From: Sabellastarte sp. h YS-2021
Taxonomy: Eukaryota; Annelida; Polychaeta; Sabellida; Sabellidae
Assembly (NCBI GenBank): GCA_964017235.1
Contig: OZ024930.1
Span: 156,426,221-156,490,220 of the forward strand
DNA: 64,000 bases
Reading direction: 5' to 3'
Under the pieces are notes generated by a model that saw only the letters and a list, made by a program, of their open reading frames with translations, did no database searches and had not been told where the DNA came from. The position numbers and the translations under genes are program-made. The first letter of the stretch is position 1. Every line of letters starts with the position of its first letter. This document shows, piece after piece, positions 30,901-36,900 of the stretch.

Positions 30901-33900
30901 TTTGCTTCTATCTCCTTAACCGTGCGAGATAGAGCGATTTCATTGAAATTTTCGACCCACGGGGTATCTAAGAAATGTACTCTTGGCAATTTTCAAAAAA
31001 AATTCCCCTCCCCACATATGGCGGCCATTTTGAATTTTCGAATTTTGGCCCAAAATAGAGTTATTTCGGTGAAATTTTCGACCCACAGGATATCTAAGAA
31101 AAAATACTCTTGGCAGTTTTCAAAAAATTTTCCTCTTCCCAAAAATGGCGGCCATTTTGAATTTTCAAATTTTTGCCAAAAATAGAAAAACTGAAATTTG
31201 CTTCTATCTTCTTAACCCTGCAAGATATAGTGATTTCGTCAAAATTTTCGACCCAACCAATGCAAAAAGGCATGAAGCTGAAATAATTTACATGTACACT
31301 AATAAATATTTAACCATCATTGATATATTTCACAAATGAAACAGGGTCTTGTAAGACTACTGTACAATTCTGGCAAAAGGTCCATGGGGTGGACATTACA
31401 CATGATAATGTGTGTTCTTCTATGCTATCCTGTTTCTATTCATATGTCGCAGCTACTATCAACAGGGCGTCCTATTTCTAGTTGTGATTTTCTTATCTTT
31501 TCTCTGAATGTGTTTAGCTAATTCTTTCCACCTTGGATTATGTATAAAGAAGTTAATATTCTGAATTTAAATAATATTTCTGTGCAAATGTAGTTGGAGT
31601 GTTTTGTTTGTTGCAGGGATGTTTGACCGTGACTATAGTGGTACCGTCAACTTCCAGGAGTTTCAACAGCTCTGGAAGTATGTTACAGACTGGCAGACTA
31701 CATTCAGGAGCTATGACCGAGATAACTCTGGTTCTATCGACAGGAACGAGTTGAAAACAGCTATTACTAATTTTGGTAAGTTTTGTGGTATGACTGTGTT
31801 TGAGGGTACAGGTTGGCTGACAGTGTCTGTATGACTGTGTTTAAGGGTACAGGTTGGCTGGCAGTGTCTGTATGACTGTGTTTGAGGATACAGGTTGGCT
31901 GACAGTTTCTGTATGACTGTATTTGAGGGGACAGGTTGGCTGGCAGTGTCTGTATGACTGTGTTTTATGGTACAGGTTGGCTGGCAGTGTCTGTATGACT
32001 GTGTTTGAGGGTACAGGTTGGCTGGCAGTGTCTGTATGACTGTGTTTTATGGTACAGGTTGGTTGGCAGTTTCTGTATGACTGTGTTTTATGGTACAGGT
32101 TGGCTGACAGTGTCTGTATGACTGTGTTTGAGGGTACAGGTTGGTTGGCAGTTTCTGTATGACTGTGTTTTATGGTACAGGTTGGCTGACAGTGTCTGTA
32201 TGACTGTGTTTTATGGTACAAGTTGGCTGGCAGTGTCTGTATGACTGTGTTTGAGGATACAGGTTGGCTGACAGTGTCTGTATGACTATAGGTTCTATCG
32301 ACAGGAACGAGTTGAAAACAGCTATCACTAATTTTGGTAAGTTTTATGGTATGACTGTGTTTGAGGGTACAGGTTGGCTGACAGTGTCTGTATGACTGTG
32401 TTTGAGGGTACAGCTTGGCTGGCAGTTTCCATATGACTGTTTTATGGTACAGGTTGGTTGGCAGTGTCTGTATGACTGTGTTTGAGGGTACAGGTTGGCT
32501 GGCAGTGTCTGTATGACTGTTTGAGGATACAGGTTGGCCGGCAGTGTCTGTATGACTGTGTTTGAGGATACAGGTTGGCTGACAGTTTCTGTATGACTGT
32601 ATTTGAGGGGACAGGTTGGTTGGCAGTGTCTGTATGACTGTGTTTGAGGGTACAGGTTGGATGGCAGTGTCTGTATGACTGGGTTTGAGGATACAGGTTG
32701 GCTGACAGTTTCTGTATGACTGTGTTTGAGGATACAGGTTGGCTGACAGTTTCTGTATGACTGTATTTGAGGGGACAGGTTGGCTGGCAGTGTCTGTATG
32801 ACTGTGTTTTATGGTACAGGTTGGCTGGCAGTGTCTGTATGACTGTGTTTGAGGGTACAGGTTGGCTGGCAGTGTCTGTATGACTGTGTTTTATGGTACA
32901 GGTTGGTTGGCAGTTTCTGTATGACTGTGTTTTATGGTACAGGTTGGCTGACAGTGTCTGTATGACTGTGTTTGAGGGTACAGGTTGGTTGGCAGTTTCT
33001 GTATGACTGTGTTTTATGGTACAGGTTGGCTGACAGTGTCTGTATGACTGTGTTTTATGGTACAAGTTGGCTGGCAGTGTCTGTATGACTGTGTTTGAGG
33101 ATACAGGTTGGCTGACAGTGTCTGTATGACTATAGGTTCTATCGACAGGAACGAGTTGAAAACAGCTATCACTAATTTTGGTAAGTTTTATGGTATGACT
33201 GTGTTTGAGGGTACAGGTTGGCTGACAGTGTCTGTATGACTGTGTTTAAGGGTACAGGTTGGCTGGCAGTGTCTGTATGACTGTGTTTGAGGATACAGGT
33301 AGGCTGACAGTTTCTGTATGACTGTATTTGAGGGGACAGGTTGGCTGGCAGTGTCTGTATGACTGTGTTTTATGGTACAGGTTGGCTGGCAGTGTCTGTA
33401 TGACTGTGTTTGAGGGTACAGGTTGGCTGGCAGTGTCTGTATGACTGTGTTTTATGGTACAGGTTGGTTGGCAGTTTCTGTATGACTGTGTTTTATGGTA
33501 CAGGTTGGCTGACAGTGTCTGTATGACTGTGTTTGAGGGTACAGGTTGGTTGGCAGTTTCTGTATGACTGTGTTTTATGGTACAGGTTGGTTGGCAGTGT
33601 CTGTATGACTGTGTTTGAGAGTACAGGTTGGTTGGCAGTGTCTGTATGACTGTGTTTTATGGTACAGGTTGGCTGGCAGTGTCTGTATGACTGTGTTTGA
33701 GGGTACAGGTTGGTTGGCAGTGTCTGTATGACTGTGTTTTATGGTACAAGTTGGCTGGCAGTGTCTGTATGACTGTGTTTGAGGATACAGGTTGGCTGAC
33801 AGTGTCTGTATGACTGTGTTTGAGGTGGCAGTTTCTGTATGACTGTGTTTTATGGTACAGGTTGGCTGACAGTGTCTGTATGACTGTGTTTTATGGTACA

Positions 33901-36900
33901 GGTTGGCTGACAGTGTCTGTATGACTGTGTTTTATGGTACAAGTTGGCTGGCAGTGTCTGTATGACTGTGTTTGAGGATACAGGTTGGCTGACAGTGTCT
34001 GTATGACTGTGTTTAAGGGTACAGATTGGCTGGCAGTGTCTGTATGACTGTGTTTAAGGGTACAGATTGGTTGGCAGTGTCTGTATGACTGTGAGGGTAC
34101 AGGTTGGCTGGCAGTTTCTGTATGACTGTGTTTGAGGATACAGGTTGGCTGGCAGTGTCTGTATGACTGTGTTTTATGGTACAGGTTGGCTGACAGTGTC
34201 TGTATGACTGTGTTTAAGGGTACAGGTTGGCTGGCAGTGTCTGTATGACTCTGTTTGAGGGGACAGGTTGGCTGACAGTGTCTGTATGACTGTATTTGAG
34301 GGTACAGGTTGGCTGGCAGTGTCTGTATGACTGTGTTTTATGGTACAGATTGGTTGGCAGTGTCTGTATGACTGTGTTTGAGGGTACAGGTTGGCTGGCA
34401 ATTTCTATATGACTGTGTTTTATGGTACAGATTGGTTGGCAGTGTCTGTATGACTGTGTTTGAGGGTACAGGTTGGCTGGCAGTTTCTATATGACTGTGT
34501 TTTATGGTACAGATTGGTTGGCAGTGTCTGTATGACTGTGTTTGAGGGTACAGGTTGGCTGGCAGTTTCTATATGACTGTGTTTTATGGTACAGGTTGGT
34601 TGGCAGTGTCTGTATGACTGTGTTTGAGGATACAGGTTGGCCGGCAGTGTCTGTATGACTGTGTTTAAGGGTACAGGTTGGCTGGCAGTGTCTGTATGAC
34701 TGTGTTTGAGGATACAGGTTGGCTGACAGTTTCTGTATGACTGTGTTTGAGGATACAGGTTGGCTGACAGTTTGTGTATGACTGTATTTGAGGGGACAGG
34801 TTGGTTGGCAGTGTCTGTATGACTGTGTTGGAGGGTACAGGTTGGATGGCAGTGTCTGTATGACTGTGTTTGAGGGTACAGGTTGGCTGGCAGTGTCTGT
34901 ATGATTGTTTGAGGGTACAGGTTGGCTGACAGTGTCTGTATGACTGTGTTTGAGGGTACAGGTTGGTTGGCAGTGTCTGTATGACTGTGTTTGAGGGTAC
35001 AGGTTGGCTGGCAGTGTCTGTATGACTGTGTTTGAGGGTACAGGTTGGATGGCAGTGTCTGTATGACTGTTTGAGGGTACAGGTTGGCTGGCAGTGTCTG
35101 TATGACTGTTTGAGGGTACAGGTTGGCTGACAGTGTCTGTATGACTGTGTTTGAGGGTACAGCTTGGCTGGCAGTTTCCATATGACTGTTTTATGGTACA
35201 GGTTGGTTGGCAGTGTCTGTATGACTGTGTTTGAGGGTACAGGTTGGCTGGCAGTGTCTGTATGACTGTTTGAGGATACAGGTTGGCCGGCAGTGTCTGT
35301 ATGACTGTGTTTGAGGATACAGGTTGGCTGACAGTTTCTGTATGACTGTATTTGAGGGGACAGGTTGGTTGGCAGTGTCTGTATGACTGTGTTTGAGGGT
35401 ACAGGTTGGATGGCAGTGTCTGTATGACTGGGTTTGAGGGTGCAGGTTGGCTGGCAGTGTCTGTATGACTGTTTGAGGGTACAGGTTGGCTGACAGTGTC
35501 TGTATGACTGTGTTTGAGGGTACAGGTTGGTTGGCAGTGCCTGTATGACTGTGTTTGAGGGTACAGGTTGGATGGCAGTGTCTGTATGACTGTTGAGGGT
35601 ACAGGTTGGCTGGCAGTGTCTGTATGACTAAGTTTTAGGGTACAGATTGGCTGATAGTGTCTACAGTACTGTGAGAGGTTACAGGTTTGCTAACATTTTT
35701 GTATAATTATATTAAAAGCTACAAATTGTCAAATAGTTTCTATATGACTCTGTTTCAGGGTACAGTCTGTAATAGTTTCTGTATGACTGTTTGGGAGTAC
35801 AAGTTAGTCAACAGTTTCTGTGTTTATTTAAGGGTACAGATTGACAGCACTCTCTCTGTATGACCATGTTTAAAGGTATAGGTTGCTAATAGTTTCTATA
35901 TGACTGTTTTTCAGGGTATAGGTTGGGTGACCCTTTCTTTGACATCTTGATCCGTAAGTTTGACAGAGGTGGGACAGGAACAGTGAAGTTTGATGACTTC
36001 ATCCAGTGCTGTGTGGTGTTGCAGGTAGTGTACAGTGTCATGGATTTTTTATAATACTTAGTAATTTATGAAGCTTGCCTTATATGACATAGTCTTTTAT
36101 CATGAATGTTTTCTGAAATACTGTCTGAAACTATCTGTGATGACAGCACATAGATTCAGTCGAGAAGAATAGAATAGAATAGAAACATTTATAAAGTTCA
36201 AAATATATGTTACATCCTCTTATGCGCTTGAGGTCAAAAAGGGAAAGTCCAGGGACATGTCAGGTCGAAATCCAATTTAGCATCCACCAGGAGAGATACA
36301 CTTTGGTGGAGAGCATGCTAGTCTAAACAAGTAGGTTGAGGAGGAAGGCTCAGTCGTCCCTGCTGCTCAAGTATGGTAAATGTTCATTGGGCTCTTGCAT
36401 CTTTTGTTTGGGCTGGAATTTAGCTTATGATAGCAGTGGGAAATACTGATTAGTTGTCCCCATATTACCCCAGTATTACAAGGGACAGCCAGTGTCATAT
36501 TGGGATCTTAAACATTGTCTTAATCTGAATTCAACTTGTTCAGACTTAAATATCTAAGTCTTATTTGCAGTAATTGTTTCAGTTTGTTCTGTACTAGCCT
36601 TTATAATAACACCATGAATGTTGATTGTGTACGATGATACTGTGGCAAGTAGTTAAGCGTCCCGCAAGGGACGCTTGTTTGTGTATGGGAGAGCTTCCGG
36701 CTCCGCCGGCTCCGCATTTTGTTTTCCTTATAACTCTGTAACCGTTAGGCGGATTCTTTTCAAATTTGGCAGGTTTAGGCAGTAGCCTTGGGGAATTTTT
36801 TTGAATATGCTGCAGTGACATTTCAACCAATCAGAGAGGTCACATGACCAAAAATGTCTTTTTTCGATGGGGAAGCTTGTCCGGATGATAACTTGAAAGG

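Follow-up and report, generated by a model that had tools for sequence, protein, structure and literature searches.

A minisatellite probably derived from the exon 5 acceptor fills intron 4 of a PDCD6/ALG-2 gene

Intron 4 of a PDCD6/ALG-2 gene, found in a window of 64,000 nucleotides (contig OZ024930.1 of assembly GCA_964017235.1, positions 156,426,221 to 156,490,220), carries a mirage-type minisatellite with a 41-bp unit. In all likelihood, it grew from the acceptor of exon 5 by tandem duplication followed by unequal exchange or slippage. The term mirage denotes minisatellite-like tandem duplications of an intron-exon boundary, described in the accessible parts of the amphioxus reports for Adh3, the globins BflGb6 and BflGb9, and TnC, with similar repeats in PGBD5 (PMC3087553, PMC3902484). 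All positions below are those of the window, and the main features are collected in Table 1.

The gene encodes a penta-EF-hand protein closest to ALG-2. The best PDB matches of exons 4 and 5 were ALG-2 chains (E-value 2e-41), and the alignment to the three ALG-2 chains shown contained no gaps. Exons 2, 3, and 6 were located in the window by tblastn (E-values of 1e-5, 0.003, and 2e-10, respectively), and a candidate piece of exon 1 was found with an E-value of only 0.5. Exon 4 ends with ...ACT AAT TTT G, in phase 1, and exon 5 starts with GYRLGD, compared to GYRLSD in the ALG-2 chains shown; mammalian ALG-2 conserves these codons. Intron 4 occupies positions 31776–35914 (4,139 nt). In human PDCD6, the Gly codon following Phe122 is likewise split by intron 4 (TTCGgtaac), according to the accessible part of the source (PMC2927601), and since the position is shared, intron 4 should be old. 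The spliceosome would normally join 31775 to 35915.

The tandem unit holds the end of the intron together with the adjoining exon sequence (17 + 24 bases). Its consensus matched positions 35898–35938 without gaps at 32 of 41 bases, in register across the acceptor AG at 35913–35914, with 14/17 matches in the intron part and 18/24 in the exon part (19/24 for the best single unit). This confirms the proposal of an earlier sequence-only reading that the minisatellite is built from the intron's own acceptor and the first codons of exon 5. Outside the locus, the best of the 59,685 24-mers of the window reached 15 matches in the same register and 17 in any register, and the best of the 59,719 41-mers reached 24/41 in any register on either strand. 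The similarity between the unit and exon 5 ends about 24 bases into the exon, and the following sixty bases match at 1–3 positions per 10. Translated in the same frame, the exon part of the unit reads GYRLADS against GYRLGDP in the exon. The motif AGTTTCT, which had been described as preceding both sequences, is present at the acceptor, but 70 of the 91 array units carry G (AGTGTCT type) and 21 carry T.

Tandem Repeats Finder (TRF) delimited the repeat to 31788–35662 (period 41, 94 copies). Wraparound alignment resolved 91 array units, seven diverged units, and one unit straddling the acceptor; 6 of the 105 alignment rows, two flanking and four over the two copies of the exon 4 end, were excluded from the unit counts. 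Units run continuously from 31788 to the acceptor unit, the exon 4 copies being the sole breaks, and apart from 12 bases, intron 4 consists entirely of unit-like sequence and exon 4 copies. The 91 array units have a mean pairwise identity of 0.90 and comprise 42 distinct sequences. Toward the acceptor, the diverged units match the consensus at 35, 27, 25, 30, 30, 27, and 31 of 41 positions, while the donor-side edge shows no divergence, its first unit matching at 40/41. A homogenized interior next to a diverged acceptor-side edge is as in mirages. The steady decay of units toward the acceptor, claimed in the sequence-only reading, was not observed: only the seven acceptor-side units are clearly diverged, and six of them match the consensus less well than the acceptor unit does with its 32 matches.

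An exact 333-bp repeat occurs twice inside the array, 2.7 kb apart, and further blocks are repeated at offsets of 844 and 561; these repeats point to recent turnover or exchange within the array. The blocks are irregular, and no regular higher-order repeat was detected at lags 1–24, over which lag identity was flat (0.895–0.917). The strand of the array (31788–35662) is rich in G and T (G 0.35, T 0.36, A 0.17, C 0.12). Four GG runs were found in 52/91 array units but in 0/7 diverged units and 0/1 junction units. A two-quartet G-quadruplex was considered as a driver of expansion but was rejected and kept as a hint only: with quadruplexes permitted, ViennaRNA predicted a hairpin for the 20-nt core.

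The direction of the process is indicated by protein conservation. The exon codons are conserved in ALG-2, and the intron position is the same as in human; therefore, exon and intron predate the array. This supports the acceptor junction as the founder and the array as its product, as the sequence-only reading had argued from the conserved codons. A genome-wide search with the unit pattern, allowing up to two mismatches, gave 80 matches, all 80 in intron 4, and none for the reversed control; in two DNA searches of the genome, 43/43 and 21/21 matches (query included) lay at the PDCD6 locus. No unit copies were thus found elsewhere in the genome, although these counts are lower bounds, and the DNA search skips very common words. 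The same minisatellite elsewhere in the genome without a PDCD6 link, which the earlier reading had named as evidence against itself, did not turn up. A junction-rooted unit tree unites the 91 array units in a clade that excludes the seven diverged ones (local support 0.715, 41 columns). Exon-like bases are also more frequent in the diverged units: column 32 has A in 7/7 of them against 27/91 array units, and column 37 has T in 5/7 against 21/91.

The following scenario probably accounts for these features. A 41-bp piece over the exon 5 acceptor, consisting of 17 nt of the intron and 24 nt of the exon, would have been tandemly duplicated toward the intron. The units adjacent to the acceptor would then have aged and diverged, and one unit lineage would have been amplified via slippage or unequal exchange, with turnover keeping it uniform. 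Exon 4 and the array may later have undergone an exchange that brought in two exon 4 ends together with the donor. The authentic junction would have stayed near the founder sequence because coding and splicing constrain it. We infer the exchange mechanism, the order of events, and the near-neutrality of the process; most likely, unequal exchange generated the array as a neutral by-product, and splicing tolerates it.

Several observations weigh against growth from the junction. The midpoint root of the unit tree falls beside two diverged units rather than at the junction. The sequence-only reading had offered rooting away from the junction as a refutation of its claim; with the array clade recovered under junction rooting and the midpoint root elsewhere, the tree does not refute it and is weak evidence on direction. 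Nine columns differ between the junction and the array consensus, and only two of them clearly pair the diverged units with the junction. The mean identity of the junction unit to the array units is 0.77, compared to 0.54–0.73 to the diverged units, and since the junction is nearer to the array than to its diverged neighbors, there is no stepwise series leading from one to the other. These identities fit an ageing edge next to a constrained junction, and it is protein conservation that carries the direction. Finally, free-register local alignment of exon 5 alone gives a score of 20; among 2,000 exons with shuffled codons, 78 scored as high, which falls short of significance by a strict standard. 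The match owes its significance to the fixed register, which continues that of the intron part, rather than to such an exon-only alignment.

The exon 4 end is present in the array twice; over their 45 nt the copies are identical, and a single synonymous base sets them apart from exon 4. Each represents an open in-frame 45-nt potential pseudo-exon, which would insert 15 residues. Splice-site scores, here and below, were obtained with rough matrices and are not measurements. The donor of each copy scores 8.39, equal to the authentic donor, and the acceptor-like TATGACTATAG upstream scores 4.26, near the value of 4.54 for the exon 2 acceptor. The finding of two such copies with full-strength donors and an open frame could mean that the array is a functional splicing device, in which splicing would include the exon 4 copies as 45-nt exons and the length or structure of the array would tune ALG-2 isoforms at the place where mammals make the Alix-binding-deficient deltaGF122. 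The human alternative donor at the same exon 4 boundary, described in the accessible part of its source (PMC2927601), agrees with this proposal. Against it, the identity of the copies to each other and their single difference from exon 4 point to a recent origin without a trace of selection, the acceptor before them is weak, and the accessible parts of the amphioxus reports describe mirages as leaving splicing undisturbed (PMC3087553, PMC3902484). A splicing device is therefore unlikely. It is similarly doubtful that splicing adds one or both copies to ALG-2, each as a further EF3-helix segment of 15 residues, at the site governing Alix binding in mammals, which would yield protein variants, possibly varying with array length among individuals.

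The true acceptor scores 8.19, the second value among 282 AGs (280 upstream, the acceptor itself, and one in exon 5). The sequence-only reading had seen in the intron about 90 decayed acceptor copies that splicing must ignore, most of them as if weakened. First place, with 8.25, goes to the AG at 35759; the diverged unit that contains it has retained TTTCAG, 156 nt upstream of the true acceptor. Use of this AG would lead to a stop after four codons. Among the AGs upstream of 35662, 21 of 261 score within 2 bits of the true acceptor. Splicing to any of the 280 internal AGs would leave no open frame through exon 5, and so would truncate ALG-2. At the site homologous to the acceptor, the 91 array units carry GAG (58), TAT (24), AAG (6), or other triplets (3), but never CAG. 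The TTTTATGG units show a shifted TACAG/G (the slash marks the would-be junction) with a score of 6.66, and 22 exact TTTTATGGTACAG sites were found. In 64/91 array units, a branch-point-like CTGAC contains G where the diverged units and the exon have A.

The lack of CAG at the homologous site and the altered CTGAC could reflect selection that weakened decoy acceptors following amplification. Such selection, however, is improbable: a few states common to many similar units suggest few events, and a founder unit that had GAG by chance would suffice, a few amplified substitutions being enough to produce the pattern. Moreover, the TTTTATGG units carry another CAG/G, and the full-strength TTTCAG persists close to the true acceptor. 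The remaining possibility, that the exon match is a coincidence or that a unit of another satellite landed beside the acceptor, draws on the codon-shuffle result for the exon alone and is highly improbable, since the fixed-register match was unequalled among 59,685 24-mers and no unit copy was found elsewhere in the genome.

A candidate branch point, CTAAT, falls within the stretch of the penultimate unit that derives from the exon, and its use would make the current acceptor reliant on a duplicate of its own exon. At 33299, one array unit contains CAG/GTAGGC, the top donor-like site of the intron (9.68 against 8.39 for the authentic donor), in which an acceptor-like CAG and a donor-like GT directly adjoin.

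Table 1. Features of the PDCD6/ALG-2 exon 4 to exon 5 region (window coordinates)
Feature	Position	Strand	Remarks
PDCD6/ALG-2 exon 4	31617..31775	+	tblastn and phmmer matches to ALG-2; acceptor at 31617, donor at 31776
Intron 4 start (12 bases) with donor GTAAGT	31776..31787	+	array starts immediately 3'
Homogenized minisatellite part, 91 units of 41 bp (plus two exon 4 copies)	31788..35621	+	
Copy 1 of the exon 4 end (last 45 nt)	32292..32336	+	TATGACTATAG before, donor GTAAGT at 32337 after
Copy 2 of the exon 4 end	33136..33180	+	donor at 33181; 844 bp downstream of copy 1
Seven diverged units, between array and acceptor	35622..35897	+	matches to consensus given in the text
Diverged unit retaining TTTCAG	35742..35780	+	acceptor-like site, first base 35759
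Candidate branch point CTAAT	35886..35890	+	motif alone; A 25 nt before the last intron base
Junction (founder-type) unit	35898..35938	+	17 nt of intron 4 end and 24 nt of exon 5 start
PDCD6 exon 5, 37 residues	35915..36024	+	first Gly codon interrupted by intron 4

Other tandem repeats were found in the window. Blocks of a 169-bp repeat, with related units GTGCGAGATAGAGCGATTTCG and GTGCTAGATAGAGCGATTTCG, occupy 30221–31056, 37041–37986, and 41265–47233, that is, PDCD6 introns 3 and 5 and the region just beyond the last exon. Intron 5 also contains a 133-bp array of 14 copies with 94% matches (37987–39856). Repeats of about 145 bp at 26850–27256 and 58618–59197 are rich in TTTGACCTTGACC-like stretches, which we take to resemble nuclear-receptor half sites.

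If the host is not a cephalochordate, mirage arrays of this type occur more widely and can expand to fill an intron. The locus is a natural test of how the spliceosome chooses an acceptor among 280 other AGs, one of which (35759) is equally strong by a simple matrix. It also shows a route by which a minisatellite can acquire donor-bearing exon pieces, the raw material of new exons and introns.

The comparison with known systems draws on the accessible parts of the cited sources. Within this scope, the literature search for boundary-derived arrays found only those of amphioxus, human F7, and human segmental duplications, and no such array reported for PDCD6 was found. Intron repeats without a junction-derived unit, as far as the sources describe them, are known in earthworm metallothionein (PMC12783039) and Conus (PMC3862624). 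Mammalian ALG-2 deltaGF122 also arises by alternative splicing where exon 4 meets intron 4, but through use of another donor 6 nt upstream, and repeats are not mentioned in the accessible part of the report (PMC2927601). In human segmental duplications, internal tandem repeats likewise place minisatellite units at an exon-intron boundary; they can activate cryptic splice sites and were proposed to form new introns. These repeats average 30 bp x 4 and arise in exons of recent paralogs, whereas here an old intron is filled (PMC2812944). Human F7 intron 7, with its 37-bp repeats, is similar in that the first member holds the authentic splice site and look-alikes follow, and normal splicing uses only the 5' site lying furthest upstream (PMC6627357). 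The F7 array was founded by a donor and the present one probably by an acceptor, the donor of the gene being represented only in the two exon 4 copies. Comparable, too, is amphioxus BflGb6, whose repeats also combine the 3' end of an intron with the 5' part of an exon; many units of amphioxus mirages keep AG/GT signals, and homogenization affects the interior and leaves out the cluster edges (PMC3087553, PMC3902484). However, about 98 units besides the junction are present here, compared to 6 and 3 in two BflGb6 haplotypes, and the unit is 41 bp long, compared to 150–160 bp in BflGb6 and 10–72 bp in Adh3. The gene is a different one, and both boundaries were copied within one intron, whereas in the amphioxus globins they were copied in different genes. 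Judged by its anatomy, the array is a mirage and thus of a known kind, and it is distinct from known mirages in its size, in the filling of the intron, and in the copies of both boundaries.

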